Below, piece after piece: positions 2,497 through 61,549 of a DNA stretch of 64,000 nt. A program made the translations under genes and the position numbers. The stretch's first letter is position 1, and every line of letters starts with the position of its first letter. Under the pieces are notes generated by a model, which saw only the letters and a program-made list of their open reading frames with translations, did no database searches and was not told where the DNA came from. Source of the DNA: Tubulanus polymorphus (Eukaryota > Nemertea > Palaeonemertea > Tubulaniformes > Tubulanidae); NCBI RefSeq assembly GCF_964204645.1, contig NC_134028.1, forward strand, positions 19,132,153-19,196,152, written 5' to 3'.

Positions 2497-4116
2497 CTAA
2501 AAGATAACCATTATAATGGAAGGTTATAGTGACTATATAAGTGGTAGAGAGGTGTCCATAATCCCATCTAAAACGGAAGACGTACATTGATCAAATTTCT
2601 TACAAATCAAGGAATAATTTATCCTTTTAGTGTCACGATTTGCAAAAAGCAGGCCTCAGAATGCCATGGTGGCCATCGTTTCATCAAGATATTTTTCAGA
2701 AAAAGAAATAAACATATAATAAGTCATATAATTCATAATCATCTATACAAGAAATACATCCTTAATAACATGTCTAGTGCGTATAATCAAAAAAATGTTC
2801 TATCAACTACTACTTGGAATAAGGGTCTTGAACAGCCCACTGCTGGGATACATTCTAATATGCCCCGGACCCCCAGTACCCTTCCATAACAAGAAACAAC
2901 TATTATCTAACCTGTGTATTAGTAAATGGTCAGGTGAGTTACATTCAAATGAGCTCGGTGAATAATAGTTTTCCACCTCCGTGGCTATATAAAACCTTGG
3001 CTTGGATATATGTATACTGATTATTGAAAAAGTTCTCAGTTCATCGTACAGAGATTTCATGGTGGTCAAATTAGGGTATGTCGAAAAAACTGATTAATTT
3101 GAAGTAGGCCTAGATAGCATAGTTCCAAATACCTGTGACATGAATGTGTAGTCACTAATTCAGTGCTTCTTAGATAACGTAACCTAATGTTATTTTTATA
3201 TATGTGGTTAGAAATATTTCATCATCTTCCTGATAGCCATGTGCATGTGATAGGCTAAGTATGACTTTGACTCATTTTGGCATAATGATATAATGAAATA
3301 AAGATTTTTAGTAACTTTCTGAGTTTTTTGATATATGAGAAATAATGAAACACTAAGCGACTAAGTTGAGTAGATTGTGAATGTTGTACCTCCCCTCGTT
3401 ATTTCATATACATTACAGACACTGGATTAACATATCAATTTTGCACTACCTACAACCTTGATATGAGCCCGTGATCCGCAATTGTTGGTAATGATCTTCT
3501 GAATTAATTATACAAAATCAAATCAAGCTGTGACGCTCAGTGTCGCCCACTAAGGTTTCATTTACCGTCCGTCACACATGCTCTCTGTGTGACTCTTTGA
3601 TGCCTAATTTCGTTAATAATCAATTGATCTGCCAATATTATGCATCAATTTGTTCAGTAACGAATCAGGGTTTATAGCATCAAGACCAACCAAAATTCAA
3701 GGCTATTAAAGAGGCACTTTCAAGGCTTTACCCCCAAGAGAAGTCCTCGCGTCATCCATTCAAAAACAATCAAAAAAAGCCTAAACATTAACATTGTACC
3801 ACTGCTGACCCAATTTAAATGACATTCACTGGCCATGTCGTGGCAAATTCACAGCCAACTACAGCAACTTGAAGAAATTAGCTAATTTTTCGAGCTAACA
3901 ACCGAATGCACACAATGATGCCTTTTTAATTAGTTGAAGTACAGATTTTCCATCAAAAAATGAAAGGTCAAAATGGAAATATTAGATAAATTTATACGCT
4001 CACAGATCTATTAAAATGGCTTATAGCTTCCTATAGGCCTATGGCTTATGGCTGATTATACGTAGCTTCCTTTTTTCTTATTTTCTACATAAAATGTTGG
4101 AAGGAGAATGAAAAGT
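2497..4116. other. Upstream region of the ABCA3-like gene; one repeat fragment
   Basis: No coding exon was recognised here. The block at about 3340-3480 resembles 8030-8190 and the right part (10180-10300) of the minisatellite-bearing element downstream, so it is probably an old fragment of that family. The 5' untranslated exon and promoter of the ABCA3-like gene should lie somewhere here, but I cannot place them. Confidence -1.
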
Positions 4117-5045
4117 AGGGGTCGAGGGACACCATGCCCACTTGGGAAGTGGTTTCAAAAGCTCAACAATCTAACAATATCAATATTCAACGACCCCTGA
4201 TGACCATATTATGCAAAACCCAATGACCTTGAAACTCACCACAATCATAGAATATGTCATGAACGACAACTTAGCAATTGATCATGGTAACAAAATATGC
4301 CTAGGTACCAATATAGCAATACTAAGTTATTCTACCATTCAACGCCCCTGGTGACCATATAGAATAACTAATGTCCTCAAAACTCACGACAATCATAGAC
4401 GATGTCATGATTATTCAACGCCCCCTGGTGGCCATATACAAAAACCAATGACCTTGAAACTCACCAAAATATCATAGAACACGTTATGAGCTACAACTTT
4501 CCAATTGATTGTTGTAACAAAATATGCTTAGGTATCAATATAATGTGGGAAAACCTTTTCCCGCCTACAAATGAGTACTGAGGACACCAAGACGGCCGCC
4601 AATTGCGTCATAATTGGCTGATCAAAAATACCTGTCCCAGGTATAAAACATCCCTTTCCAAAGAATACCAACCACTAATTGCAATGAGAAATAGCGAACC
4701 AGTATGAAGCTACAGGACTCGGAATTTGGGCCAAAATTGACATTTTTGGGCACTAAAAAAGGTCACAGGATAGCCATCTTGAGTCTGATCGACGCAGTTC
4801 TTCTCATGCTGATGGGCCCTTGGGCGATACAAATACATATGAACAATCAAGGTAATTGATCAAAGCGTCTTCAAAATTTCCCTCGAAAACTTCGAAAATG
4901 TGTAAAAAGTGCTGATTTTGGCGAACAACAATGGCTGCCAAATAACAAGCCATTACCTTGAAGCGTCTTCAACACTTCCCAAAATACCTGAATTCCGTCT
5001 ACGGACAGACGGACGGACGGACGGACGACAGACGAACAGTGAATG
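4117..5045 (+). mobile_element. Helentron-like (pearl/HINE-type) non-autonomous element, copy H1, 3' end replaced
   Basis: The 5' end shares with copies H2 and H3 the motif GGGACACCATGCCCACTTGG. It is followed by degenerate units (starts near 4188, 4339 and 4416; the middle unit is shortened) containing AACTCACCACAATCATAGA and a CCCCTGGTG core. A unique part follows, then a (GGAC)n microsatellite at about 5006-5025. Tandem units, a microsatellite and a 3' hairpin are the known layout of pearl/DINE-type elements mobilised by Helentrons. This copy lacks the 3' hairpin: at about 5046 it switches abruptly into a fragment of the 847-bp family. Confidence -1.
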
Positions 5046-16479: not shown

Positions 16480-19400
16480 ACTGACATGGACAGTCCAGTC
16501 ATCGAAGCCATCGAAAGCGGTGAAATCGAAGTCAACTCTGAATCGGAACCATAGACGAACGCAGGAATACCTGAACCGAAGGATGCTGAAAACAGAAGTT
16601 CCGAATTCAACGAAATCAGATAACGCTACCATGAACACAGCAGTCATGACTGTCAACGCGACTCATAGGAACTCAGACAGTGTTGAGGACGTCATAACTA
16701 CCGCTGAAATAAAGAAATTGGAAGGAACCTCGCAGAAACTTTCAGGTGGAGTAGAGAATCCCACACTGATAAAACGAAAGATAAAGTCCGAAAAATGTTT
16801 CCTATATAGCTGATGTGTTTTTATTCATTCGACGTTTCGACTATAACCTAATAGTCATCTTCGGGAATATTGAATTAACAAGAAGTAGAAATATTTATAT
16901 ATACCAGCCAGAACATAGAGACAAAATAGTTAAATAAATAAAGTAATTAAGAGCGAATTAAGCTAAAAGGTATGATTAACTAAAACAAAAGTGATTCAAA
17001 GTTGAGAGAGTGACAGTAATTGAGTAAATTACAACAAAACAAAGAGGGGAGGAAAGGAACATTAAAGTTTAACCAAATTGCAGATGAATTTAGAAATAAG
17101 TTGGTTATGAGGGGAAAAACCATTGTTCAGGTTGACGCAATTATCCGAATTTTCCATGATCAAAGCGGATTCTAAAATGTGTCTTGTGATTTTATCATTA
17201 CACGGGTAGATTAATTTAACGTTTAAAAAGTCAAAATTATGTGATGATTTGAATTGATTTGAGTGGTCAACAACCGCACTTTCTGGTTTAGAGTTTTTTT
17301 GATATCTAATTTGTGTTCTTTGGTTGAGATTACGACCTGTTTCACCTAATTATACTTTATTCCAGACTTTACATAGTATTTTGTATCTTCCACAATTGAG
17401 AGATTCCGATTTAGGTTTATTGTTTATCAATAGGTTACTAATTTTATTATTGTACTTGAAAATTATTCGTTTATTAAGGGATTGGAGAGGGAGTTTAGAT
17501 TTTTCCAAAAATGGAACATACGGAACAATGATAGGCTGTTTATCAGACGGCGTAGGGGTTTTAGAGTTTCTATTATTAAAATGCGAGGAGCGAGCTTTTT
17601 TGGAGAGCTCTTTTCGAAATGTAGTCAGGGTAGGGGGTTGGTTGATGTGTTTTATTTCATCGAGTAGCATAGATGGATCACAAATTCTTAAAGCTCTACG
17701 AGTTAGCCTTGAGCTAAAGCAAGTTTTATACTGAGGGAAGTGAAAGCAAAAAAATGTAGGCATTTTACCGCCCATTCGTAAGTGAAAGATAGGGATGGGT
17801 ACAGAGAGTTAAGATACGAAAGGACATTATCAACGTTAAAATCACAGGGCGCTAAGGCAAGGACATCATCAACATATCTAAGCCAGATTTTGGGTGGTAT
17901 ATCCGTGTACAGAGGTAGTATTACTGATTCTGCATGTTCGAAGAACAGGTTAGCAAGAATAGGACTGAGAGGGTTACCCATAACAATACCAAATGTTTGT
18001 TCATAATAAATACCATTAAATTCAAAAGAGGAGTCCGTAGTACAAATGGCAATGAGGTCGATGATACAGTCGGTAGGGATGCCGAGGTTTATATTAAGGG
18101 AGGATAATCGTCGTTTAAGAAAATCAAGGGTAGGTCCGAGTGGAACATTAAGGAAAAAGGGGAGTTAACATCGAAAGATATGAATTTTTCATTACCAGGA
18201 ATAATATTCTTAAGGGGTTCAAGCAAATCTTGGTTATGGCGGAGGTGCGAAGGGGAAAAAGAGCCAAGAACAGGAGATAATTGTTTAGCTAAAACTTTGG
18301 TGTGAAAGGTAGTGATGGGAGACGAGAATGGAACTTATTCAAAGTTTCTTTAGTGGACGGAAACCGTTTAAGAATATCTGAGAGATTTCTATTACAATTG
18401 GCTTGCATACGTGAAAGGGGGTTCGATTTAAGTTTCTTATATACATCGGGGTTGTCTAAGAGAGATAACATTTTTGCATTATAATCAACAAGATCTAAGA
18501 TAACAATTTTCCCACATTTTTCCGCTTTTGAAATTTTAACAGTTGTTACGTTTCGGAGTTCATGAAGAGCGAGACGGAATCGACGTGGTAAATAATCAAA
18601 ATAATTCATGTTCAGTTGATCACAATGGTTTGTAAGTTCATAAATTTGAAATTATAGTCCAGACTATTGAGTGATAATTTCCGAAATTCTAAGTGAGTGA
18701 CGAAAAATGCTTATTCTGCTGTGGAAGCGAAAAGTTCAAACCATAACCGAGAATTTGACATTGTGTAGATGTTAACACGGTTGAAGATGGATTAACGATG
18801 TTGTCTGTTTTGCTGAATTTAGTCCATGCAGTAGAATCGATCAATCTATCGAGTTGGTTCTTAAGATCCAAAGATTTCTTGCGTTACTGGTATATAACGG
18901 AGTCGTGAACTATAGACGATAGTGAATTCCAGATATATTGGTCAGGTAACTGAGACTTTAGATAGTTTTGAGATTGGCGAAATTTGTAGAATTGGTGATT
19001 GCAATCTTCCTTAGCGCGATCTATTGCGAATTTCAGTTGTTTATTAGTTTCAGGCGGAAAAGCTGAACTGGAATCATACTTCCAAATCCAAGACAGCGAA
19101 CACGGAATAACTTTTTCGCAGTAACAGTTCTGGAGAAATTTAACTTTACTCTTGCCGCGGTTCTCGATTTAATGTAACATTTTTCATAATTTCGGAAGCT
19201 GGTAACGAGATACGGAAACGCGAGGAAAAAGAATTTCAAAACAATGCTTCGATCCGTGGGTAACATTATAACCATTGAAGAAACACTATTCCGTGCTGTA
19301 ACGATAAAGTAGAGAATCCCACACCGATAAAACGAAAGATGAAGTCCGAAAAATTTTTGCTATACAGCTGATGTGTGGGGAACTTGCCGATTTGAAGGTC

Positions 19401-20108: not shown

Positions 20109-20455
20109 GTTCAATCAAGGATCAATGAAACATAGCCAACACCCCGAATGGACTCGGTTCGAGGCTCTCGACTATTCATCAAAATAACGAGATGATTTCC
20201 GTTTAAATAATAGGTTTTATTTCAATAATTATAAATGAACAAATATGCATTAATCAAAACAATTTAAAAGAATGATAGGACGGATAATTCATCAACCCCA
20301 ATGTACTATAGAGCGGTGTACCAGGGTTCGTTTCAGTTGTATGGGAACAGTCTTACAGGCAATGGCCACACTAATTCTGCAAGTAAAGAAGAATATATAA
20401 TATTAAGAGAAATGTGTTCAACTAAAATCCCTGTGAGAGAAAATCCTTGTGAAAC

Positions 20456-21621
20456 TAGGGGTCCAGGGACACCATGCCCACTTGGGAAATGGTTTCAAAT
20501 GCTCAACAATCTAACAATTTCAATATTCAACGCCCCCTGGTGACCATTTACAAAACCCAACGACCTTGAAACTCACCAAAATCATAGAACATGTCAGCAG
20601 CTACGATTTTGTAATTGATTGTGATAACAAAATATGCCTCGTTACCAATTTAATATGGAAATACTAAGTCATTCTACTATTCAACGCCCCCTGGTGACCA
20701 TATTCAAAACCCAATGACCTCGAAACTCACCACAATCATAGAACATGTCATGAACTACAACTTTGCAATTGATCATGGTAACAAAATATGCCTAGGTACC
20801 AATATAATAAGGAAATACTAAGTTATTCTACTATTCAACGCCCCCTGGTGACCATATAGAAAAACTAATGTCCTTAAAACTCACAACATTCATAGATGAT
20901 GTCATGAGCTACAACTTTCCAATTGATTGTGGTTACAAAATATGCATAGGTACGAATATAATAAAGAAATGCTAAGATATTGTATTATTCAATGCCCCCT
21001 GGTGGCCATATACGAAATCCAATTACCTTGAAACTCACCACAATCATAGAACACGTTATGAGCTACAACTTTCTAATCGATTGTGGTAGCAAAATACGCT
21101 TAGGTATCAATATAATGTGGAAAAACTTTTTCCCACTTACGAATGAGTACTGGTGACACCAAGATGGCCGCCAATTGCGTCATAATTGGCTGATGAAAAA
21201 TACCTGTCTGAGGTATAAAACATCCTTTTCCAAAGAATACCCATCACAAATTGCAATGAGAAATGGTAAACCAGTAGGAAGCTACAGGACTCAGAATTCG
21301 GGCAAAAATTAACATTTTTAAGCACTAAAAAGGTCATAGGACGGCCATCTTGAGTCCGACCGACCCAATTTTTGTTTAGTTGATGGGCCCTTGGGGGATT
21401 CATATATATACGAAAGATCAAGGTAATTGATCGAAGCGTCTTCAAAATTTCCCTCAAAAAGTTCAAAAATGTGTAAAAAGTGCTGATTTTGGCGAACAAC
21501 AATGGCTGCCAGTCAGCCATCTTGATTCTGACAGGGCCAGTTTTTGGGCTGAAGATGTGTCTAGGACGACGGACGAAAAGTGAACGCAATAGCCCGCTGG
21601 GACTAAAGTCCCAAGTGGGCT
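20456..21621 (+). mobile_element. Helentron-like (pearl/HINE-type) element, copy H2, most complete
   Basis: The 5' end is GGGGTCCAGGGACACCATGC. Four tandem units of about 155 bp follow, starting near 20526, 20683, 20836 and 20991, each opening with a CCCCCTGGTG core and containing TTGTGGTAACAAAATATGC-like text. A unique 450-bp section with AAGATGGCCGCC follows. The copy ends in a hairpin at 21591-21621 (AGCCCGCTGGGACT pairing with AGTCCCAAGTGGGCT) and then AAAAA. The 150-codon minus frame inside is just the unique section read backwards. Confidence -1.
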
Positions 21622-21743
21622 AAAAAGAAATTCTAGCATTGGAAGTTGTTAGTGCAATCTTGTAATAAGCAATCATCGCATACCGGTGCAGTGCAGTTAA
21701 CAAGAATTGGCTTAGGTAGGGATTTGGAAGGCTAAGTGATATC

Positions 21744-24700
21744 CTACATACCTCCCTGCATTGTGAAATCAAATGGATTCGAATATATTTTGGTGATATC
21801 ATCCAGATTGGTCATGCATTGATCATCAGTTTCAGCCAGATATCCAACAACCACTGTAAATCAGATAAAAAAATTATTCTACCATCCCCTGCAACTTATC
21901 ACAGCTGAGCCTTTTTCATATAACTTACACTGTTGTGGAATAAACTCTGGTACTTTCTCCCTCAGGGTGTCTAGCGTATTCTTGAAATTCAACTGTCATA
22001 GAAAAATTTAGTATAGTCATACATGTAGTACAGTGGAACCTCATTACGTAGCCAGAAAATGTGTTCGTTATATCAGCATGAAATTTATGATCTTTTTTTA
22101 CTTTGGCCGAAATTCTACATTTGCTATATCGACGACGAATCGTTGTATGCGAATTCGTTATGATGCGGTTCCACTGTATTTAATGTGGTAAAGAGGATTG
22201 TGTTTAAGGCCAGACAAAAAAGATGCCTTGTTTCTCATCACAGCAACATGAAGGTATCAAACAAGGGCAGGGGTTATTCTTTTTCATTTTATAGTTTAAA
22301 AAACGTGGAAATAAAAACTTTTATTGTAGTTGAGGTATCTCATCAATTTTAGACAGTGTGGTAAGAAGATTGTGTATAACCAGCGCATTATTTTTCAATT
22401 ATCTTGATTCATGATGCCAATCCGTCTGAGTTTCAATTGCTTCAAATTTATTCAATTTATGAGTCCAATGAGATGAAAATTGATGCTTACTAGGTAGTTA
22501 AATAAAACATTCTAGATGTGTCAAGACCAACATTGGAAATTTAAAGAAATAATTTTGTAAAACTACTGAAACTGAAACCTCGTTTTGGCTGTTAACTATG
22601 CCATCAGTAGGCGGTCCGTAGTACATAGTAAGAAGTTAAAGTGAAAAGGAATAAATTGGAATTGACTGTACTAGGTATTCGAAGACATCTGTGATATTAA
22701 AACAAATAATTCCCATCGGCTCTTCTTTTTTTCCCTGGTTAAATCCGTACTCAAAGTAATAAAAAAAAGCCTTTTCTAAAACTGAACAAGAAAAATTATA
22801 TTCTTAATCCTCACCTTCGGGGTTTTTGAAAGAAAATTTCCAAGTTTAAGAAGCTGATTTAGAACATCAACGATGAGTTTATCAGTTGAATCAGACGGTT
22901 CATATAAGGCTATGTTCTGTGATTGGATGTCTAGCACACGTGAGTTCCAACCACTATACGAACGTGTCGGAATGTTTAAGTAACTGTTAAGGTACTTAAA
23001 AGAATGAGCTTAAAACCGTTGACTGAGCCTATTCTAAATCATAATGTATAAATGAAATGCATTCAGTTTATGAAAAAATGCAGATGAAAGTTCTATTTTA
23101 CAGGACTGTCTGACTGGGGCTGTTAAAACAGTTGTAACTACATGTACATGTACAACTCACTGCTAGATGAAAATGTTCAGGCCACTGAGCTGGAATTTTA
23201 TTTCATAAGGAAATCAAGCAGATTTGACAGGAAAAATATTAACCTTTCATCATCCCATACAGCTGGAGATATACAGGGTGTCTCAAAAATGTGTTACCGT
23301 GGCTTAAAGATTAATTTTTCATTAAATGTAATTGAAATAAATCTTTTGGGAGGTAAGGTTGGTAGACCTTGGCTCGACTTGACAAAATTGTTGGTCCTTC
23401 TAACTAATTAAGCTATTCTGGGACTTATCTGGGACTTCTTCAATATCATAACCATTAGTCACTAATGTACAGTTCAGCTCAACGTCGAATCTTGACATAT
23501 CGGATTGAGTATTTCTCAAAATCTGTCATTTTCCCAACACTTAAGTCAAAAATTCCTGCTGGTGGTCTTTTGAATACCTTGGTTTTTACATATCTCGACA
23601 GGAAAATATCACTTTGAGTGAAATCCAGTGATTTGGTGATTTTAAATCATTTTTTCAACTGGCAGCTGCTGATTTTTCAAAAGACGTACACAATGGAACA
23701 ATCTTTAATTTTGGTTCGACACCATTTTAAGCACCATTCAAAAACATGCTAGTCCTCAGCCATGCATGACTTATTTTGCATTTCATTTTCAAGTAGACAT
23801 CCAAGTCTACTAACCTTACCCCCTAAACTATAATTAAAATTATAGCTAAATATAGCTGTAAAGCACTGACAACAGGTTTCTGCCTTGCTGGTTTAAATGT
23901 CGCACTCGGAAGCACACAAAGATTTCACCAAAATAATTCTTATCAGTTCGTAACATATGACTATTCTGAAGGAGCGTGACACATATCCGGGATATGTGGA
24001 TCTACAAGGGCTACCACTTAAAAAGTACTGATGTACCTTGTTCGGTGCTTTCATAGTTCCGTTGGGAGTTGCATGAACTAATCGTACCCCTTTGCATATG
24101 GCACTTATGTGTATATGTACTTATACCAAGTTTTTGATGTGATCCAGCTTTGAAACTGGACTAAACCATGTGTACTCAATAGATTTTAATTGATTTCAAC
24201 ATGCATTCGTGAAGCATTTTGATAATATCACATCGCTAAAGATCTTGATTTGTTCTATTAAGAACTCAATCTTAATCTGATAAGTTGACGTGCAGAACAA
24301 AATAACAGAGATAAGAATCACTGTTAATTCGATAAAAGAAATGTTTTATTGAAATATTTCAATACATACATATGTAAGTTGTAGATCGCCGAGAAAGCAC
24401 TATTATCATTATTATTAGGGTTTCTGCTGCTTTCGCAGAAACCCTCTTGTAATTCTGTTGATTATTATCATTATTATAAATTTTCCACTTTCCTGCCAAA
24501 AATTTTTCATAAAATGTAACTCCTCTCAGATTCGACTACTAACAGCTTATAAACGTAATTTTCAATTCTGTCAGAAATGTAACTCAGCACCTGGCCATTT
24601 CGATTTGCGTATAGTAATTTATTATGAATTAATCCCGCGTAAATTCCGGGTCTAAAAAGCGACAAGAATAACGCAAAGAATCGTCATCCATTGATAAAAG

Positions 24701-27700
24701 TGCACCCCGAAAAGCCTAAAATTTACCGGATGACCTTGAGCGTCAACTCAACCGTCAACGGATTCGGACTCACATTAGTCCGGACACGTCAATTCTCGCT
24801 ATCTGATTCATATATGAGCGATTCAAAAAGCCGCCATTTTGTTTTCGCAAATCACGTAATCCCTCGGACTGATAGAAGTCCCGATCCGTCATTTCCCCTT
24901 TCTGTTTCATCTATCGCCGCCATTTTGTACCATCTTCCGTTTGGCAGATGAACTCAACATTACCTAAATCGCTTCAAAGACGTTGACGCAGTTGATACCA
25001 CATCATGTTCGAATCCCGACAATGCAATAATTTTGTTACCTATAATTCCCTCTTTGTGATTGAAGTAAATTAATGTTCATTGAGCATACGTCGTTAAGTT
25101 TTCAACAACTTTAAAAAAAAATTCGTTGTTTATTTCTGAATGCAAATTCCTCACTGAACGAATTGATGCATAAAGAAAGATCAACCTAGTATTAACGAAA
25201 TTATAGATCAAAACGCGCAAGGAGAGCATGTGTGACAGACTAGTTCATGCAACTGCCACCAGGGGACTCTGAAAGAACCATATCTTCAGTTAAGCCATTT
25301 TGGTACATCGATACTTTTTACGTGGTAGCCCTTGTATGTAGCTGGATCCACATATCCAGCATATTGTTGACCCAGGTTGGGCTTCTTGGAAATAAGTCAT
25401 ATGTTATGGACTGTAGAATTATTTCAATGACGCTGCCAAGTGCGATATACATGTATGAACCAGTTAGGCAGAAACCTGTTATCGCTGCTATGCAGCTATA
25501 TTTATAAATTATTATTATTATTATCATTTATTCTGGTCCTGGGCCACTGCTGATACTAGATTTTAAGGACTTCTAAATCCATACTTGAAAAAAAAACAAT
25601 GATGGTCAACGAACCGTGGAAGTTTATGTAGCCGAATAAACTGAGCAGTCACTTGGTTATTAGAATCAAACACGCTTGGTCACCAGCAAATTGTCAATAA
25701 GTGTGAAGATTTGTAGACCGACCAGCAATAACAATAAACCTCTGGCCGAAGTTAAAATGTGTTAACGGATTACATCATTAACAAAGCTCAGCAGCTGAAG
25801 GACGGATAGACATACAGTCACATTCGATTGACTCAAAACAATGTATGATATTGCATATCTACCATGTCGAGAATTACCCGCTTACAATAAAAATCCTGGC
25901 TGTAAGAATATCCATATTTGATATGACTGTACGACCAAAACTATTGAAAAATATGAATAAAATGTCCATAAGCCTATACAAATCAAACATAAACCTGTTA
26001 GAAAAAGGGAATGTAACTAGGGGTCCAGGGACACCATGCTCACTTGGGAAGTGGTTTCGGATGCTCATCAATCTAAAAATTTCAATTTTCAACGCCCCAT
26101 CCAATGACCTTGAAAAATCCAATGACCTTGAAACTCACCACAATCATAGACCATGTCAGCAGCTACAATTTTGTAAATGATTGTGGTAACAAAATATGCC
26201 TAGTTACCAATATGATATGGAAATGGAAATACTAAGTTATTCTACTATTCAATGTCCCATATGTAGTGACCATATGTAAAACCCAATGACCTTGAATCTT
26301 ACTATAATCATAGAACATGTCATGAGCTACAACTTTGCAATTGATCATGGTAACAAAATATGCCTAGGTACCAATAAAATAAAGAAATATTAAGTTATTT
26401 TTCTATTCAACACCCCCTAGTGACCTTATTGAATAACAAATGTCCTTGAAACTCACCACAACAATAGACCATGTCATAAGCTACAACTTTCCAATTGATT
26501 GTGGTAACAAAATATGCATAGGTACGAATATAACATGGAAATACCAAGTTATTGCATTGTTAATGCCCCCTGGTGGCCATATGCAAAAACCAATGACATT
26601 GAAACTCACCACGATCATAGACCATGTCATGAGCTACAACTTCCCAATTGATTGTGGTAACAAAATATGCTTAAGTATCATTATAATGTGGAAAAACTTT
26701 TTTCCAACTACCAATGAGTACTGATGACACCAAGATGGCCGCCAATTGCATCATAATTGCTTGATCACATATACTTGTTTGGGTATAAAAGATCCTTTTC
26801 CAAAGAATACCCATCACAAATTGCAATGAAAAATGGAAAACTATTAGGAAGCTACAGGACTCAGAATTCAGGCCAAAATTGACATTTTTGGGCACTAAAA
26901 AGGTCATAGGATGGTCATCTTGAGTCTGATCGACCCAATTTTTCTTATGCTGAGGGGCCCTTGGGGGATTCAAATATAGGCCTATAAGAAAGATCAAGGT
27001 AATTGATCGAAGCGTCTTCAAAATTTCCCTCAAAAAGTTCAAAAATGTGGAAAAAAGTGCTGATTTTGGTGAACAACAATGGCTGCCGGGCAGCCATCTT
27101 GATTTTGACAGGGCCAGTTTTTTGGGCTGAAGATGTGTCTAGGGTAGATACATGTGTAACCCAAATATCAAGACACTGAAGGATCTTCAAAACTTCCCAA
27201 AATAACTGGATTCCGTCTAGGGACGGATGAAAAGTGAACGCAATAAATAGCCCACTGGGACTAAAGTCCTTAGTGGGCTAAAAACCAGTGAAATGATTAT
27301 GGAGAGATGGCAGCACTGTACGGTAACGGATTTGGTATTATGGATCAAACGCCAGAATTAAAAAAAATTTCAAATTTTTGGTTATTATTTCGATTTTCCC
27401 ACTGACACCCATGAGCAATCTACAAGATTTTGACGATTTGCAAAACAATTTTTGAAAGATTTTTTTTTGTTATGCACACAGGCATGGCCTTGGTTTTAAA
27501 TGACATTCGGATATAACAATGTTTCTTCGGTATACACTTATACCGTATTCCGGTTATAACATGTAAATTATCTCATCCCGACTGCTACGTTATATCCGAG
27601 GTAGACTATATATGATAGAACTCAAAGTAGCTTAGATATCAAATTCACACCTACATACATTCTTGGTCACTCTTTTGACATGATAAAATTCTTTTACCCG

Positions 27701-30700
27701 AGATTAATTCATCATATATCACTATAAGCGAATTCGAAATGCTCAGACGCTAAGTTATATTTCTGTCAGAATTGAAAATCACATTTACAAGCTGTTAGTA
27801 TTCGAATCTGAGAAGAGTTACATTTTATGAAAAAAAATTTGTCTGGAAAGTGGAAAAGGTAATAATCACGAGAATTACAAGAGGGTTTCTGCTGCTTCGC
27901 ATAATGAGTAACCTAAAGACTTGGGTAACACATTTTCTGAGACACCCTGTATATCTTCTGAGAAATAGCTGTTTTCCCAATAGAAATAGGTTTCTACTGT
28001 GCTAATTCAGAATCAGGGCCAAGTCTGTACAGGCAGCTTTTCAAAAGGGCAATTCTATCATCACCAAAATGGGTACACTGGGAGCAAACAAAGAGGTTTA
28101 TGACATCTTACAAATAATGTAACAAACCTTCAAATTAAAGACTAAGTCAGTTTCATCTCACTATTGGCCATTGGCCATAATATCCCCATAAGCCTACATA
28201 TACACATCTAATTAAACAGTTTTGTTCTAAGTGTGGTCAAATGTTGTTACTGAACAACGGTGTTTAGCGCAAAAATTAGTCATTATATTTTTGAAATAAT
28301 CAAATGTTCAAAACGGAACATGGCTCAAAAAGGCCATTCATTTGAAAGGATGAACCTACGGGCTTGGGCTTGAGGGTATCTACAGAGCATTTAATAATGA
28401 CCGGACCCTGACCAGTGAAAATGGTCCATAACTCTTGGTTGATGCTGAGGTTGATGCTTTTTGCGAATAGAAATTTGTTTGTGATCTCCTATTGTCCGCC
28501 CAAGTGGTTTGTCACTAATCAGTGATTTTTTGTGTAGAGCTACCCAACAATCCCCTATGTAATCTCAATAATACTTAGCTCCATATACCAATTTCACCGA
28601 AATTATGGGCCATTCTCTGAGGGTCTGGTTTTATATGAAACACTCTTGTACGCAGTTTTCAACACTTTGTTTTGTGCCACCTAGAGTGTCTACCAAAGCT
28701 CTTTATTGGCCAAAAAGTAACATGAATATCATAGATAAAAGGATATATCATGTGATATAACTAAGATTCTTGACTTTTCCATAAAACCAGTTTTCTTTCT
28801 TTCATTTTCCAGTAAATCTTTGAAGAGCAAAACAAGCATGTCAGATGAACTCTGAAATATGACGTTAAAAATATTTATAAATTGGTTATTGGCATTCAGT
28901 AAGTACATAGGTCGAACACTTATGGGTGAGGGGGATTCCCTATGTATTGTACTATGTAAAGCCTGATCATTCTGGATGTATTGGCCTCACTCCGTGCAGT
29001 TGTGCCACCGTGCGGGATTTACGCCAAGCAACAGAAACAAACATGGCCACCTTTTTAATTATCAATGTTAGAAATTGTATGAATTTCAATTATTCCAGCT
29101 GTTAGGGTTTCAAGGCACAATATAACTAGATGATGTGATATGGCGATGCTAATAAATGATAATGCCGCAGTGAAGCTAGTCACGAACCGTCCCAATTGAG
29201 TGTACAGTGGCCAATAACATATAAATTTGTGTAGTTACATAACTATTTGCAGTGAATTGCAGACGAAACATGAAGCCTTAATGGCGGTTTACAAAAACAT
29301 TAGGGCCTATAGCAATCACGATTGAAAGATAATAATGATATACAACTTAAGTTAAAATTATGGCCATTTCTAAAATTATATTACTAATATGTAGTCACTG
29401 CGGAACATTTGGTTCTGGAACAATAATGAGGGGTGGTAGGTAGTCATTCAATTCAAGTCATGATTTACCGCATTTGACTTCCGTGTTGTTGAAAATCTTG
29501 CGAGAATGGCACAACATTGAAACTGACAATAAATGCCAAATATCATACATATTTTTTTGTACATATTCATAATTGAATGTTCACGATCAGTATGTTTGGC
29601 CTTGATGGTTGCCTGGGATGCAATTTTTCACAAGAGAATTTCTGCCATCTTGTTTGCAGTGCGCATGCTCCCCATTCTGTTTGTAAACACAATCCACATG
29701 TTTACACTACACTTGCTGTATCAGCGTCCGCGGATATAAACCTACTAACAAAACAGCGTCAAATAGCCTACCGGAACCCGCCAACCTGGACACCTTTCCT
29801 ACGATTTTATATCTACATGATTAAATCAATCATGATTGATTAATATGATGCTGTTTTCACATTTTTTATTCGTGTATAGTGTTTCAACCTGTTTATCAGC
29901 ATACCAGGGGACCTCCAATGGTTAAGATGGATCTTCAATGGTTAAGATGGATCTTTGAGCATATGCAAAATTTTGAAATATTGATAATTTCCCATGTATT
30001 TCATTCATATGTATTTCAACTCATAAACTTTTGGAGGATTTAATTAAAGAAACATTCGTAAAGCCTGCAAATAATTGCACATGCGATCGGCCACCCCGCT
30101 CGTGCTTAAATGGAAAATTAGTATCTTGTACGATGATGAGTGATCAAAATGAAAGATGAAATCTAAATCATTTGATTCTTTCAAAGAAATGCGTTGGGTG
30201 GTTTGGAAATAAACTGAATTTTTTGTCACCTCATTTCACATGTTGCCTCTCCCTGGACGTATTAACTTCACTAACCATGATCGTTGTGATCTGTGTGCTG
30301 GCCACAAATGCACACTGATCACACTACACTACCCATTCACCACCCAACTACCCACAGCTTTGATCTTACCATCCTATCATCAAGTGTGTTTCTCCCTGGA
30401 TGTTTGTAATGGACACCAAATGAGCGTCACATCAAATCAATCAATCAAAGAAATAAGGGAACAATCATCCCTATGTCACGATCAAATCCTGTCCGACCTT
30501 TTTATTGAATTTAGATATTATTATCTAAAATAGGGATTTTTGTCCGACAGTGAAATTCAGGGCAATCTTGCATTTCTAGTGGTCAAAACAGCTTGTCTAT
30601 ACCATTGAAAATACATTGTATGCACAAATTGTGCATATGGTACCATATTCTACAAATGGCTCATAACGGTAGGCCTATTGGTAATACGCAACCCAATTCA

Positions 30701-33700
30701 GATTGGCTATGCTTTCATATTATCCTACCATCAGAGGTCCAGGGATCACCATTCATGTGTAGGAACTACCAGGTAATAATTCAAAAGTTGAATACAGTCA
30801 GCTTCACAGTAGTCGCCTTGCAGTAACTCGTAAAGATTCCCAAATATTTGACTTACCCGGTATTCATTGTACATCGTGTAAGTCAAATGAACTTGATTAC
30901 CGGGTATTTTAAACAAGTAGCCTATCGGCTTATTAAGCTCTGCTGTGTGAATTGAAGAAATAGAAGCTGCATACCTAGGGGTGCCAAATCCAAAATAGGG
31001 CTTTGTACTTTGTAGGTATTGGTCCAAAGAATATTCATCCCAAACTTGGAATTTATCTGATTAAAACTAGGACTATTAGCAATTCAAAGTAATAGAAGCT
31101 CCAACCCTAGGGGCGCCAATGGGGGAAAAATCTAAAAATGGCTCAGTAGCTTTGTAGATCTTGGTCCATAGAACATTCATACCAAATTTGGAATTGATCT
31201 GGTTAAAACTCTAAGAGTAGTAGTAATTTGAAGAAATAGGAGCCCAACCCTCAGGGCTACCCACTGGGGGACAAATCCAAAAATGGCTCTGTAATTTTGT
31301 AGGCCTTAGCCCATAGAACATTCATATCAAACTTGACATTGATCTGACTAAAACTGTAGGGCTAGTAGCAATTTGAAGAAATAGAATCTACACCCCAGAA
31401 GCGCCCCCTGGTGGACAAATTAAATAATGGCTCTGTAACTTTTTTAGGCCTTGGTCCATAGAACATTCATACCAAATATGGAATTGATCTGATTAAAAAT
31501 GTAGGATAAGTAGCAACTTAAACAAAAAGTTGACAGACGCACGCATGAATGAATGAATGAACAAACTAACCGATGGACGACGACGGCTCACCCCCCTAAC
31601 CCCTCGGTCACAGCGAAGCTAAAAATATAATATTATTTTGATAAATTTGTATGACTTATGCAAAGTTGTTTGTATTAAAATCTGTGATGTACATGTGTTA
31701 TTGAAACTCACAATCATAGGAAATATTATGGGTTCTAGAAACTTGCCATAACAAAACTCAGCTTCGAGAAACTTAGGGAGCATCTCAAAAAAATTTCTAT
31801 TGTTCTGTCAATTAGAATAACTGTCTAATTGGTTTTAACCCCCCCTTACCCCCCCTTTGATTAGACACATGCCAAAGTTGGAACTATTGATTTTCTAATG
31901 AGAGACCACAGACAAAGATAAGGCATCTCACGAGTGTACTTCGATCACAACTTTTAATTGAAAAATTAAATAGCAAAATTACAAGTGGAAAACCTATTAA
32001 ACTCTAATGGACTTTATAAACAAAGTCAAATATATCTAAAATACCAACAGCATCTAAAAGAGAGACAGTTAAATCAACTGCCTGTTATATATTTGAAACT
32101 GCAATTCAATTCAATGTTATCTTGCACCACAATAAATCGATAGTTCGGCAGTTGTGATGAATCGGCAGGAGGCCTTAACACCCCCCTCACCGCCTTCCGC
32201 GAGTTATTCTAATTGAAGTAACCATCGAAATTTTGAGATGCTCCCTTAAAACTGATCCTGCATCGAGGAAACAAATAATGCATATACAGCAGAATCCGCT
32301 AAATATTGGAAATTCCGGGAAATCTGGATTTAAAGTTATTTTGTTGTATACCGGTATTAATGAAGAAATGGCATGCAGATGTTATCTGGATTAGACCAAA
32401 AACCGATTCGGAAAAAGCGGGTTTGACTGTATGTGTTACATAGTTAGCAAAAAATATGGTGTTTTTGAAATTTTGGAAATTCGGAGATTGTTCATCTATG
32501 TAAACCACTTACTTCTACGATATGTAAACAATATTCAGGATAAATCAGAAGTAATCCAGACACAGGTTCTCCTTGTAATGAATTCAGTGCATTTTTGAAT
32601 AATCTATCATAATAACCTGAAATTGAATAAACTGACTTAGCCTATTTGAATTTGAATACAGGCCTAAAATAGCAGAATGAAGAAATTTTTGGAGTTGATA
32701 TAGTCATATCATTGATCACGCGATGTAGCCTACAGAGTACACGATCAAATAAGTTATATTGGCCCAGGCTGAAACATATCCAAGATTTACTGAAATAGAA
32801 CGCCTCACCTGAAATTTCATCTTTCTCTTGAACATCTTGCTGCAGTTTAGATAATATGACAGTCCGATGTACTAGGTTTTTCTACAATTTCAAATAAAGC
32901 AGTTCAAAATCAAGCTGCAATCCATATAGAAATCTGTATGGTCAGAGAATGACTGGCTATGAGCTACTGGGAATGACATGATTGTGAGTGTCATATGTCA
33001 CAAGTGAGTGTCATATGAAATAAAAGTTTTAATTCTAGATTGAAAAACGAAGTTTGTTAGTGTTTTGTGATGTCGCTGTGTGTGGAGCCAGTGGCCATTA
33101 TCTTTTTAAATGTATCAGTAGCAAGATGATTTTTCTCTGATTTATCGCACAATAACCACTAAGAACACAGACGTATTATCAATTACAAACCCCCCATCCC
33201 AAGTCCATCGCTGTGTGGGTGAAGTAATGAGATTTTTGCTAAATGTAACCGATTTATATTCCTGATAAATGCAAGAATAAACATTTTTGAAAGGGGGTTA
33301 CGACATTACACTACGACAGTTGTACGAAGAAGTGAGAAAATTGTTGTTATTGGAACGCAGTGGATATTTTACCGGATACGGCAGAGTGTTTATTTCCGCT
33401 ATATGATCGTACATCGTCGCTGATTGGCTCATTTACGCTGTGCATGTGCACACTGGTGCGCGACTTAGAAAATTCAAGGAAAGTGTGGAGAACATAGTTA
33501 GAAAAAATAGAGCGGATAGTGCGAGACTCGAACCTGGGCCAGTATATTACTAATTCTAGCGCAGCGTCATCCCACTAGACCACCAAGCTTGCTGAAAGCC
33601 AACAAAATGTTGTAACTAGATATAGCACCTAACCTTACCCTGACCCTATCCCTAGGGGTAAACCCTAAACCCAATAAAATGATTTTATTGTTACTTTTAT

Positions 33701-41489: not shown

Positions 41490-44400
41490 AGACAAGAATT
41501 CATTGGGGCCTATGCATTGATCTAAATGATTCTGAAATACCTGTACTGAATGAAAACATGATGGATGAAATAATGAAACTGTTTGATGATGACTACGTCG
41601 AAAATGAAATATCTTCAATGAGGATAGCTGCATTGATAGGAAAAGGATTTGTATCCAACATGAAATTAAACGGAAAACCACTTCTACCACCACTGGTAAG
41701 AATTCTGAACCTTGTTCGAAATTCTCCCTAGTTTAGTAAAATTCAGTTTGACTAAGTATTTTAATCAAAATTAATCTGGCATGGCATTTTGATTGTTTAA
41801 GAAATTTCCATCTGTGTTGACAAAAACAGAAACCTCCATTTGGGGATTGTTTGAAATTGACGTAATGGTTGAACTCTGTATTTTATGGTGTAAATCCACA
41901 AAATCATATAATCACAGTCTTAGCCGTATGGACTTATGTCCCAGTGGGTTATTGCGTTCACTTTTCGTACGTTTTTCCATGGACGTCGCAAATCACTTCA
42001 TACTTTCGGCGCTTGTTGTGCAAAACACAGGTTGTTTTCTGTTCTGGATCCCTTCTGGCATCGATGTGTTTTCATTCATTGTAGATGACTCCTCGAATAC
42101 GCGAAGAATGCAACACATACAAACATCAAGCTTTATTAGTCGAAAGTCGTATCAAAGCTAGGAAACGTGAAGAATTATTGGCAAAAGTTCAGCAGATTGT
42201 TGACAATTCTTCGACTACTACTGTTGTAAGTTTAACCTTATCTTGTAAAAGAGGGACTCGTGTATATTCGATACTTTATAGCCCATTTGGGACTTCAGTC
42301 ATCAGCAGCCATCTTAGTCTCATTAGTCCTCGTTCTTAATTTCTTATTTGGGAAAAGGATTTTTGGAGAAAATGTTCGACAGGCTTTGAAATCCAGGGAT
42401 GAGAATTCCCAGCGGATTTCGGTATTGAAAAATATCAATTTTCCAAATAGTCCAAAAATGATGTAAAAGTATGGGGGGGATGATCTCACTCAATTGGTCC
42501 GGCGTTTTCGGCGCGATCGGTAATCAGGTGAACCGTAAAAGCGTTCAGTGCCTGTTTTACTCATCGTCACGTAAAAGTATCGTATTTCAATGCATATTCA
42601 TTGCAACACAGTGATTTTGTATCTACATTTGTACTACGATCTTGATGAGTGTGTATGTATTTTATCGATCGGTTGCCGAACCGCGCGTGCGGCAACAGTA
42701 GTAATGTATATAGGCCTACTTACTGTTGCCGCGCGTGTGTGGCGAACGTCTTCGGATATTATACACTACTGGGTGATGATTTTTAGTGAGCATTCATCGG
42801 CGCATATTTACTGCAATAATTCAGGGCTCGACCCATAATGCATGAGATGTTGAATGTCATCGAATGAGGATGTACCACATTGGAACTAGCCATTACCTTC
42901 CAAAATATAATAGTCGTTCATGGGTTCAAGATCGCTCTAAGTGCTCGCATTTAATTTCTAGAATTTTCTTGGGGGAGGGCCGCCAAACCTCCCGAAATAG
43001 CTTCGCGCTTTTCGGCGCTCGCTAGTGCTGACGGCTATGCCGTCAACTTGTTCGCGTGTGTAACTCAAGAAAAAAAACCCGCGGATTTTACAGGTCGGCG
43101 TTCTCATCCCTGGAAATCATATTCAATAATTGTAAGAATTGTTATGGATCTAAAGTACAATGTTTCTCAATTTATGATTTGTTTCAGGGTTTTCAAAGGG
43201 CTTTCACAGTACCACCAATACACGATTACACAGACAGTGTAGACGTCAATCAGAGTTTTGATTTTGATTCTGGAGATATTCCAAAACCTTCAACGAGTCG
43301 GATGTCATCAGGTGGCACTGGTGGCGCAATTTCTCCTGGAGAGATAGAGCCAATGGCTAGTTACATATTCAGTAGTAGTGATAGCAGTGAATATCAACAG
43401 ACAGTGATAGCGCGGGACGAGTCGAGTCATTTCAAGCAAGTTGCAAAAATATTACGAGAAGAAAAGACACAGATTTCTCCCACAGATGATGTATTTGAAG
43501 AAGAGCTGTCAGCTTCATCATCAACTCCATCGTCAGCTCCATTGACGACAAAGTCAACAGTTGAAGAAACTACGAAAAAGCCAGCATCATTATTGGGAAA
43601 TGTCAGTTTAAGTCCTGTTAGTGACAAATCCTCTCGCGATCGAATCAGCTCTGGTAGCGATGTTGCAGAAAATAGTTTGATTCAAGATCAGTTGGCAGTT
43701 TCGAGTCGAGAAGATCATAATATGTTTATATCAGGTGATTCAGCTACGCTTTTATCCACTAACAGTACCGATATAATGCAGTACATGAATGGATCTGTTT
43801 CTACAATTAGTTCTACTGGCACCTTGCCAACAAGAGAGTCAATCTTACGGGATAGCGATACGATAGTCGGCAGTTCGGACCATGAGAATGATCACGATGT
43901 AACTGTCATTCAACGGGTGGAGGCCACATCTGAAGCATCAAATGATCCTCCAGTTGATTCTCAATCGCAACCGCATTCTGAGTTGGAAGTTCAGCAAAGA
44001 TCTGGAAAACAAGAACATTTGAAACGTTACTTACAACATTTGAGTCAACAACCACAACATATACCGTTGAGCATTAACAACCGAGGTGGTTCATCGGAGA
44101 GTTCCGATTCATCTACTTACGTCACAGCTCCGGAAACGATTCGAACTCACATGAATCCAAGTTCATTTTCCATGAACTACGATCACCACTCATCTGAACT
44201 GACTGACGAGGAATATCTACAACTGCAGACACAGCATTTCGACGAAATGCGTAAACGCCTCGAAGAACAACAGCGCGAACAGTTGGCTCAGTTGCTATGG
44301 GAACAACAACACGAACAGTATTTACTACAGTTGGAAATGCGCGAGCAGGAACGTCGGCTCAAGAAAGCTGAAGAGGAACTGCGCCAACAATCAGCGGTTA

Positions 44401-47400
44401 CTCAGCCATTATCGTCAACAACTGATCGCGGTACTGATGCCACACCTGAATCTCAAATCATCGATCATAAAACGAAACCTGAAACGGCATTCATACCTAA
44501 CCAGGAGCATGTAGCTCCTCACTACCATCACTTTCAACCCAACAACCGTAGAGAACAAACGCCCACCATTATTGTGCCGGAAAAAGCCTTTACTGCTGAG
44601 ATGCAGGTGAATTTCAATCGATTGTCTGCTGTTGCTAAAGGGTTCCTTACAAGACGATTGCTAGCCTCTGAAAAAGTTCAGGCTTTAGTGAAAACTGTTA
44701 AAGTAAGTTATTAATGATGACGCGCATATATCTTAAAAGTTCAATCCCTCAATTTACCCGTTGTAAAAGACAGGGAGATGTACGTGGGGTTGTCACATTC
44801 TAGTTTGTTGGTGGCTGAATTTATTTTGATACCTCTGATTTATTCAACAGGATACTGCGCAATTTGCTATAACATTTCAATCAGAGACTCCTATAAAACG
44901 TGGTATATATTCATCGCAGGATGTTACATTGCAAGAGAGAGTCATTGCACAGGTATGTATGTTAAATTGATGAAACCTACACAAAAATGAGATCTAAAAT
45001 AAAAAGGAACATTAATGGTTAGATTATCACTATTCACAGCGATTGCGTTTGTGTGTGTATATTTTGACCTAAGATTGGTTTTGTATCCGTAACTATCGTA
45101 TTTACCGCAAAAAGTAAACTATAATTTGCAAACCCAGCACAATCATAGTTGCAGTTTTTATTGAATGCTGGCGCTGGCGTATTGCGTGATGCACCCGTCA
45201 GTAACAAACAGTCGCTTGCTGTCGACATCAGCTGACAAAGTTTGTCGATGTCTTGGCTGCAGATGCACATGACCCAAATTTGCGCTAGGGAGGTTAGGCC
45301 TACATCGTTGTCATCATCATCATCAATTGATGGATCCATCGAAGGCTCGACAGCCTATTTTTATCTGCTTTGATGTCTCACTTCGTTGCCGTACGGCAGT
45401 AACCCAGCTTTTCGCTTGGAAAATCAGCATGATTTATCTTAATCAATTTCGCTTTCAAGAAACGATTTACCCGTGTGTCGTACTAGTAATATACCTGATT
45501 ACAGATTCTCAGAAAGTCAAAAATAAAAACTAACTTGTCCGAGGCATTAAAAAGGTTTTTCGAAATATTCATGATTTACTCTGTCAGTGGCACTTTTTAC
45601 ATGTCTACAGCATGTCTTGTACGCAGGATACCTTATCTCATGCAACAGATAAGTTCCTTGCTACAATAGTTTAATAACGCTCTAGAGACGAATTATATTT
45701 TGTGATTTATTTGATAATAATCCTTAAATTCATTAATTTCATTTTCTGAACCACCTAACTGGATTTAATTATGATAATTTAATTATGATTAGTTATTTAA
45801 TCATAATCAAGGATTAATTATGCTCTGTGAAAACTGGCCCCTGAAATTGATTTAGGTAAGCAGTGTAGTTTTAACATGGTCAACCATTATATCATCGTTG
45901 CCTGCAGTATGTGTAGTGTTACTTTTTTTTGTAGTTGAGAGCCGCATTACTGGAAATTCATGACATATTCTTCACCATCCCAATTTCACAGAGGATGTCA
46001 TATATAGCATTGACTCGAGAATTAGAGCAAGAAAGGCGCTTTAGAGAAATGGTATGTATTGATAAAGATTTCAGCAGAAGAATTTATAATATTTCCATAT
46101 TATATTGGTACACATTTTTGTTACCGCAACCAATTGCAAAATTATAGTTCATGACAAGTTCCTTACATTAATGATTTTGGTGAGTTTCAAGGTTATTGGT
46201 TACCATCTATGTTCACCAGGGGGCACTGAATATTGAAGTTATCTGATTGTTGAGCATTTCCAGGGATAAGAATTCCCTGTGGTGGGCTGTGAGTTTCTGT
46301 ACCAAAAAATAACATTTTTCTGATTAGTCAAAAAATAATGAAAAAGTTAGGGGGGTGGCAGGCCTCAAATTTAGGCAATTATGACCTACAGCATTTTCTA
46401 GCATAGAATGCTGTGGGTGGGCACAGCAACCCACAGCAATATTTAAAAACCTACTGCAGTTTTTAGCCCACTTGGGACTTTAGTCCAAGCGGGCTATTGC
46501 GTTCACTTTTCGTTAGTCCGTCCGTCCATCCGTAGACGGAATCCAGTTATTTTGGGAAGTTTTTGAACATTTTGAGGGAAATTTTGAAGACACATGGATC
46601 AATTATCTTGATCTTTCATTTATATTTGAATCCCCCCAGGGCCCATGGGCATAACAAAAATTGGGTCGATAGGACTCAAGATTATTTTGAGGCCTGGGGT
46701 TGATGTCACTAACCTGGTCCACTGCCATTTATAAGTGGGTTTGTCTGGCACGATCGGGATAAGTAATCGGGGCTAACTTAAAAAGTGTTCAGTGCCTGTT
46801 TTACTCATTACCCCTTCAGCTAGGGTGGGTATGTAAGTCAAAAACAGCAAATTAGTGCAGGATGAATTACAGCAGGTTGATGTTCGCCGATTTCAAAACC
46901 ACTTTCCAAGTGGCATGGTGTCCTGGGCGCGTAGTTGTTTTATTGGTAAAATTAATGCTGTCCTGGTTGTGATGGATTATCAAAAGTACATTAAACATAT
47001 ATAGTTAGATCATTTTTGAGAAGAGAAAAGAGTATATGTGAGTTAAGTAGAGTAATAGAGTGAGAGACAGGCTCAGTCACAGTAAAAACTCATGCATATA
47101 TTACATGTGAAAATTTAGATGTAGTTGCTATTCGTATTTGAAATTGCTTTTGTATTTGTAGGACTCGCGTAGATCCAGCACAGGTGGACAGTCTCTTACT
47201 AGGAAAGTCAGTTCTGCTACCCTGAAAGCTATAGAACGAAAAAAGCGTGCCAAGTAAGATGCTTTAATACAATGAATGAAAATCTATTAAGGGGCATTGT
47301 TCGTTGAACCTGGCCTTACTCTGCTAATTAGTTTCATGATTATCAGGCCAGCCGTAGGCTGAGCCTATTACTATACAAATTGAGCGAATTTAAATGACAT

Positions 47401-60801: not shown

Positions 60802-60951
60802 GGATCATTCATTAATTACGTACGCATAAAATTTGAATTTTTCAACCCCCCCTTCCCTCTGTACACAAACTTTTTTCGTATACATTAAGCATTACAGTAC
60901 GCAATTGCACTGACCTCTCCCCTAATGCGTACGTAATAAATGAATGACCCC
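60802..60951. mobile_element. 150-bp MITE just upstream of the RING gene exon
   Basis: GGGATCATTCATTAATTACG-TACGCAT at the left is inverted at the right (ATGCGTACGTAATAAATGAA-TGACCCC). The middle includes a CCCCCCCTTCCCTC tract. No target duplication was resolved. It ends 90 bases before the start codon region. Confidence -1.
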
Positions 60952-61038
60952 ATACTCAGTAATAACGTAACGTTTTGGTTTTGCCTTTTTTTAGGACAAG
61001 TTTCACCATTGGTATTAAGGACGACGATTGTCCTCGTC

Positions 61039-61549
61039 ATGTCTCGATTTGATGTGGATTGCTTCGTGAAGCCCCCCGATCACGAACTCATATGCTGCAT
61101 ATGTCAGTTTGTTTTAGACCAACCAGTGGAAAGTCCTTGTCGACATGTATTTTGTCGTATTTGCGTTACTCGATGGCTCGATACAAAAGATTCGTGTCCG
61201 ACGTGTCGTCATTCTCCGCTGCTCGAGGCTCACCTGAAACCTGCACTGCCGCTTATACAGAACATGATCAATAAACTCGAAATACGATGCAAGAATTTCA
61301 CAAATGGCTGCCCGGTGCAGTTTGTCGTCGAGTTCTTTGATCAGTTTCATCAGGATAACTGTGACTATCGATTCATTCGTTGTAAATATAAGAAGTGTCA
61401 ACGTGAGATTTTAGCAAAGCACGAAGCAAAGCACGATTCGGAATGTGACTGGAAAGAAATCCAGTGCAATAAACAATGTGGCCTTCATATTCTAGCCAAA
61501 GATTTGATCACTCATAATTGTGTGGAATCACTGAGAAATATGGTTGCCG
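61039..61549 (+). CDS. RING finger plus TRAF-type zinc finger protein, first coding exon
   Basis: The start MSRFDVDCFVKPPDHELICC follows a good acceptor (CCTTTTTTTAG) at about 60995, so an upstream untranslated exon is likely. A C3HC4 RING finger spans residues about 19-57 (CCICQFVLDQPVESPCRHVF, then CRICVTRW and CPTC), with the Cys/His pattern complete, which predicts E3 ubiquitin ligase activity with an E2 partner. Two TRAF-type zinc fingers follow at residues about 80-160 (RCKNFTNGCPVQF, HQDNCDYRFIRCKYKKCQRE, HDSECDWKEIQCN, CGLHILAKDLITHNC). The exon ends at MVAG with a donor GTAAGT at 61550. This arrangement is shared by RNF41 (NRDP1), RNF151, PDZRN and LNX proteins, and the part that would tell them apart lies outside the window. 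The exon is intact. Confidence -1.

Follow-up and report, generated by a model that had tools for sequence, protein, structure and literature searches.

A predicted U12-type AT-AC intron in the TEX47 gene of the nemertean Tubulanus polymorphus

Introduction

Minor (U12-type) introns occur with both GT-AG and AT-AC termini. Across the genomes held in U12DB, the ratio of GT-AG to AT-AC introns ranges from 3:1 to 1:1 (PMC2831892), and AT-AC introns account for 24-26% of human minor introns (PMC8280824; PMC10639083), a larger share than the small one assumed in an earlier note on the DNA described here. AT-AC introns of the U2 type are also known; found in sodium-channel genes, they carry G at position +5 (PMC2831892). 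Here, we describe an AT-AC intron in a TEX47 gene of Tubulanus polymorphus, located in a 64,000-nucleotide (nt) stretch of contig NC_134028.1 (assembly GCF_964204645.1, positions 19,132,153 to 19,196,152), hereafter the window, whose numbering is used throughout. The intron runs from 28746 down to 22974 on the minus strand, spans 5,773 nt and lies in phase 0 of TEX47. On the basis of its splice signals and the homology of its flanking exons, we regard it with high confidence as a U12-type spliceosomal intron.

TEX47 has been characterized as a sperm-specific tether/tetherhead subunit of the axoneme that contacts the linker of dynein f-beta, and its orthologue in Chlamydomonas is MOT7 (PMC11779644). 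No published minor intron in TEX47 was found among the open-licence papers searched: none of the 25 that mention TEX47 or C7orf62 is devoted to minor introns by its title, and none was seen among the best 25 of 275 on AT-AC or minor introns or the best 15 of 137 that combine minor introns with sperm or the axoneme. The name TEX47 does not appear in the main text of either PMC10639083 or PMC13216214. As for the general properties of minor introns, phase 0 accounts for near 22% of them in most species (PMC10639083), and the phase-0 deficit is significant in all organisms surveyed except four (PMC7367187); the TEX47 intron is thus in the less common phase. The length of minor introns tracks that of major introns from one species to the next, with a median of 4,019 bp in the black soldier fly (PMC10639083). 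A length of 5,773 nt is unremarkable for a minor intron.

Splice signals and exon junction

The intron begins with ATATCCTTTTATC and ends with TACCTTAACAGTTACTTAAAC. The upstream exon closes with ...ATATCACATGAT and the downstream exon opens with ATTCCGACACGT, leaving GAT (D) and ATT (I) as the flanking codons. Located exactly where the exon ends, the U12-type 5' splice site ATATCCTTTT (28737-28746, minus strand) is identical to the published consensus ATATCCTT (PMC2831892). At the opposite end, the U12-type branch point CCTTAAC (22986-22992, minus strand) is followed by a ten-base spacer, AGTTACTTAA, and by the AC read as the 3' splice site (22974-22975, minus strand), with 19 nt from the first base of CCTTAAC to the intron end. 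In its extended form, ACCTTAAC, the branch point agrees with the consensus TCCTTAAC except at the first base (PMC2831892). Each testable sequence hallmark of a U12-type AT-AC intron is present, with the branch point one base off. Positions +5 and +6 of the donor are both C, and the G at +5 that marks U2-type AT-AC introns is absent. Three placements of the boundary would yield an identical mRNA (ATAT..AC, TATC..CA and ATCC..AT), AT-AC ends being obtained only in the first, and the AC 3' end keeps the exon frame.

The exons on either side provide a second line of evidence. Exon E3 (28747-28851, minus strand), which ends ...VISHD immediately upstream of the AT-AC intron, matches positions 58-92 of the Pfam TEX47 family PF24787 on its own (E=4.1e-6), and exon E4 (22815-22973, minus strand), which starts IPTRSYSGWN and is followed by a GTGAGG donor, matches positions 93-148 (E=3e-10 alone). 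Because the two exons cover abutting profile positions, the AT-AC join neither drops nor doubles a residue; joined, they score 79.8 bits against the family (E=2.7e-22; the cut-off of PF24787 is 25 bits). With no gap at the AT-AC join, the 147 residues of E1-E4, compared without the trial tail described below, match TEX47 in PDB entry 9fqr (E=4.2e-20) and the 'inner-arm dynein f/I1 light chain' of 8glv (E=2.3e-7), in which we take chain D9 to be MOT7; matches to BLUF proteins are weak (E about 0.6-0.8). The earlier note had placed the intron at these coordinates, with these boundary letters, a continuous phase-0 join, a TEX47-like product and the donor, CCTTAAC and AC hallmarks of the U12 type. 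Re-reading of the sequence and the Pfam and PDB matches bear it out on all of these points, and C at +5 and the presence of snRNA genes support the class assignment.

The signals are more than chance would give. The TEX47 alignment fixes the exon end independently, and the place of the donor was not picked for its letters. Counted over both strands (128 kb), ATATCCTTTT occurs once, at the TEX47 exon end, as does the pattern [AG]TATCCTTT. CCTTAAC has seven copies when both strands are counted, a single one of which falls within the sense intron. If bases are taken as independent, base composition gives a chance of 3.3e-6 of meeting the donor at its fixed place and of 8e-4 of meeting CCTTAAC at any of 13 offsets.

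The donor also pairs with the small nuclear RNAs (snRNAs) encoded by the genome itself. In a fixed register (U11 nt 1-8, U6atac nt 10-16, G-U allowed), 8/8 positions pair with U11, one of them as G-U, and 7/7 with U6atac; CCTTA pairs with UAAGG of U12. Sixty-three of the 127,976 window positions tested pair this fully, 11 of which begin with AT or GT, and among these 11 only the TEX47 donor has ATATCC.

Minor-spliceosome genes and a proposed course of splicing

Genes for all four snRNAs specific to the minor spliceosome are present in the genome, with scores above the respective Rfam cut-offs: U12 at 111.8 bits (cut-off 53), U11 at 98.1 bits (39), U4atac at 73.0 bits (53) and U6atac at 96.5, 93.5 and 40.5 bits (33). 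The earlier note had named their absence as a reason to abandon its reading and had called for this search. A repeat of the search recovered 5/6 of the matches. Copy numbers are lower bounds, because 40-49 candidates per family were scored. The U6atac matches lie at C8:14138292, C6:5269837 and C8:15260197; two are strong and near-identical, and the weak one (40.5 bits) may be a pseudogene.

Among the proteins, the CENATAC family PF14968 has an exon match of 38.8 bits (cut-off 25.3), and a second match on the same contig (C6) scores 25.2 bits alone and 34 bits with its in-frame neighbours. When CENATAC was depleted in human cells, 92% of the A-type minor introns were affected (PMC8280824). Four matches to the U11-48K zinc finger were also obtained on contig C8, two of them in one 273-amino acid (aa) frame; because one archaeal control matched as well, these were discarded and are not used as evidence. 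The U11-48K zinc-finger motif is also common to other proteins.

With this machinery, splicing of the TEX47 intron would proceed along familiar lines. U11 would pair with ATATCCTTTT, and the pairing of U12 to CCTTAAC would leave the branch A bulged; U6atac would then take the place of U11 at the donor, and the AC about 13 bases past the branch A would serve as the 3' splice site. CENATAC probably assists, because the intron ends are AT-AC. From the signals, the exon homology and the snRNA genes, we infer that the intron is spliced in vivo; any expectation as to the efficiency or the tissue of splicing would be equally conditional.

A control intron in a syntaxin 6-family gene

Syntaxin 6 is listed as a gene whose AT-AC intron in the fly corresponds to a U12 intron in human (PMC2831892). 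In the T. polymorphus genome, a gene of the STX6 family contains an intron of 409 nt, ATATCCTTTTCC...GCCTTAACATGAGTTCTAC/GTATTGTGGAG (the slash marking the splice junction), with the same signals as the TEX47 intron: ATATCCTTTT, CCTTAAC and a terminal AC. Removal of this intron places 88 residues on 88 positions of the profile PF09177. Two further PF09177 matches, at C7:740494-741054, were excluded from the control. Signals of the TEX47 type thus mark what appears to be a known AT-AC intron in the same genome.

Alternative explanations

Several observations weigh against the assignment of the TEX47 intron to the U12 type, or at least limit its support. A instead of T precedes CCTTAAC. The 3' splice site is preceded, at a distance of 6 nt, by a second in-frame AC (22981-22980), whose use would add LN to the protein; this AC is too near the branch point under the customary rules. 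When G-U pairs are allowed, the sense intron contains 11 branch-like sites that pair with U12, and the two window strands together contain 263. Free duplex energies do not discriminate, since values as good are reached by 6,904 (U11), 10,658 (U6atac) and 13,207 (U12) of 127,974 window 13-mers. The control is a single gene, likened to syntaxin 6 by gene family and not by codon position, and its donor passes the U6atac test and fails the eight-position U11 test at one end. The last TEX47 exon, which should hold most of profile positions 149-192, was not found: none of eight candidate peptides from 219 downstream open reading frames (ORFs) matches TEX47 alone.

This missing exon, together with an intron full of repeats, could be taken to suggest that this copy of TEX47 is decaying and retains an old AT-AC intron that is no longer spliced. 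Such a history is very improbable, given that the frame stays open through four exons, that their splice sites agree in phase and that the overall match to TEX47 has E=6e-49. Moreover, a search of the genome with the family profile returned three matches (3/3 candidates), all within this gene and corresponding to E2, E3 and E4 (E1 does not appear), and thus no second TEX47 locus; the E3 match extends past the donor into the intron across one TGA. Nor would a freely decaying gene be expected to retain such U12 signals.

We consider it very improbable that an ordinary GT-AG (U2-type) intron with other boundaries lies here and that the AT-AC signals are coincidental. The materials for one exist in part: there are GTs within the upstream exon at 28850, 28833, 28787, 28774 and 28761, and an AG at 22985-22984. 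However, no GTRAG donor occurs anywhere in 28500-28851, use of the exonic GTs would cut out residues that match TEX47, and the AG at 22984 would break the frame. Past the boundary, the frame meets a stop at 28731, ahead of the first further GT, which lies at 28721. The earlier note had ruled out a GT-AG alternative on the ground that no GT precedes the stop; this is correct downstream of the boundary, but overlooks the five exonic GTs, none of which is GTRAG. Removal of the AT-AC intron by the major (U2) spliceosome, for which the sodium-channel genes provide a precedent (PMC2831892), is scarcely credible. Introns of that type have G at +5, whereas the TEX47 intron combines C at +5 and +6 with the extended donor of U12 introns and a branch point that resembles theirs.

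The remainder of the TEX47 gene

Upstream of the AT-AC intron, the gene is interrupted by two conventional introns, both read directly from the sequence on the minus strand. Exon E1 (32809-32881, minus strand), whose inclusion lets the PF24787 match of the joined protein start at profile position 1, has the donor CAG/GTGAGG, whose phase fits E2. It is followed by a GT-AG intron of 192 nt (32617-32808; GTGAGG...TTTCAG), and because an AG acceptor precedes E1, at least one further exon probably lies upstream. Exon E2 (32513-32616, minus strand; 46.1 bits in the genome search, profile positions 24-57) ends with the donor GAA/GTAAGT and is separated from E3 by a GT-AG intron of 3,661 nt (28852-32512; GTAAGT...TTTCAG).

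E1-E4 with a trial tail give a protein of 182 residues that matches positions 1-157 of the 192 in PF24787 at 166.7 bits (E=6e-49). The last 12 matched residues fall in the trial tail, and the tail peptide alone has no TEX47 match. Two candidates for the last exon, 21747-21860 and 22324-22398, were rejected, as neither has a Pfam match and the former is also out of phase with E4. Because the last exon was not found, the TEX47 gene is described here as a partial model.

Repeats inside and around the intron

Much of the AT-AC intron consists of repeats. The earlier note had placed a mariner-like element, a Helentron-like element and an inverted-arm repeat within it, and the repeats and inverted arms are indeed there, those at 26012-27285 and 23267-23830 having relatives genome-wide. 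The first of these, a dispersed repeat (26012-27285, unstranded) of about four 154-bp tandem units, was delineated by repeat analysis and genome search and is presumably Helentron-like. With 40 of 4059 candidates scored, at least 65 matching pieces, itself included, occur in the genome, some of them on other contigs, the near-full-length ones being 83-87% identical. Further copies in the window lie, at the least, at 20450-21626, 4087-5009 and 46090-46682, giving four full or partial copies in 64 kb.

Repeat analysis also identified a left terminal inverted repeat, AGATATACAGGGTGTCTC... (23267-23298, plus strand), and a right one that is 97% identical to it (27924-27956, minus strand); we take the left one to be mariner-like. 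The segment 23267-23830 has at least 94 matching pieces in the genome, itself included, with 40 of 140 candidates scored, and no transposase was detected by Pfam in two peptides tried from 23403-23646. A further inverted-repeat arm (24435-24643, plus strand) is 81.5% identical over 211 columns to its partner (27693-27892, minus strand). The inverted ends of 32-33 bases enclose about 4.7 kb of the intron, including the 154-bp-unit element and two sets of inverted arms. Without this envelope, the intron would measure about 1.1 kb, and the whole envelope may have been gained by insertion. As these mobile-element-like repeats sit away from the splice signals, they lengthen the intron and leave the signals untouched.

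Elsewhere in the window, a second tandem array (30985-31516, period 145, 3.7 copies) lies in the adjoining 3.7-kb GT-AG intron. Reverse-transcriptase-like ORFs occupy 17350-18651 on the minus strand, in what is presumably a Penelope-like element; a weak RVT_1 match at 17709-18164 (19.6 bits, E=0.00078) falls under the Pfam cut-off of 29.6. On the plus strand, we assume that a 560-aa ORF (43032-44714) resembles CP110 and that a 205-aa ORF (60940-61557) is RING-finger-like.

Significance and comparison with known introns

This locus adds a clear predicted AT-AC intron to a gene of the sperm axoneme, in a genome with all four minor-spliceosome RNA genes. Hundreds of such introns are expected per animal genome, and the TEX47 intron is a convincing, ordinary new example of this known class, nothing stranger. 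Defects of the minor spliceosome have been linked to primary-cilium genes (PMC13216214), and a target in the motile axoneme would widen the link to cilia if the TEX47 intron is spliced as predicted and is conserved. More speculatively, and with rather less than even likelihood in our view, the intron may be old, perhaps pan-animal, and may have been kept in an under-represented phase despite nested insertions. A sperm dynein tether would then depend on AT-AC/CENATAC splicing, which could limit sperm motility.

Among the systems compared here, TEX47/MOT7 of PDB entries 9fqr and 8glv shares the protein family (E=4.2e-20 and 2.3e-7), a likeness drawn between proteins. The U2-type AT-AC introns of sodium-channel genes share the AT-AC ends and differ in having G, where the TEX47 intron has C, at +5. 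The STX6-family intron shares the ATATCCTTTT donor, CCTTAAC, the AC end and the place of CCTTAAC, which starts 18-19 nt before the intron end; unlike the TEX47 intron, which is in phase 0 and 5,773 nt long, it is in phase 1 and spans 409 nt.

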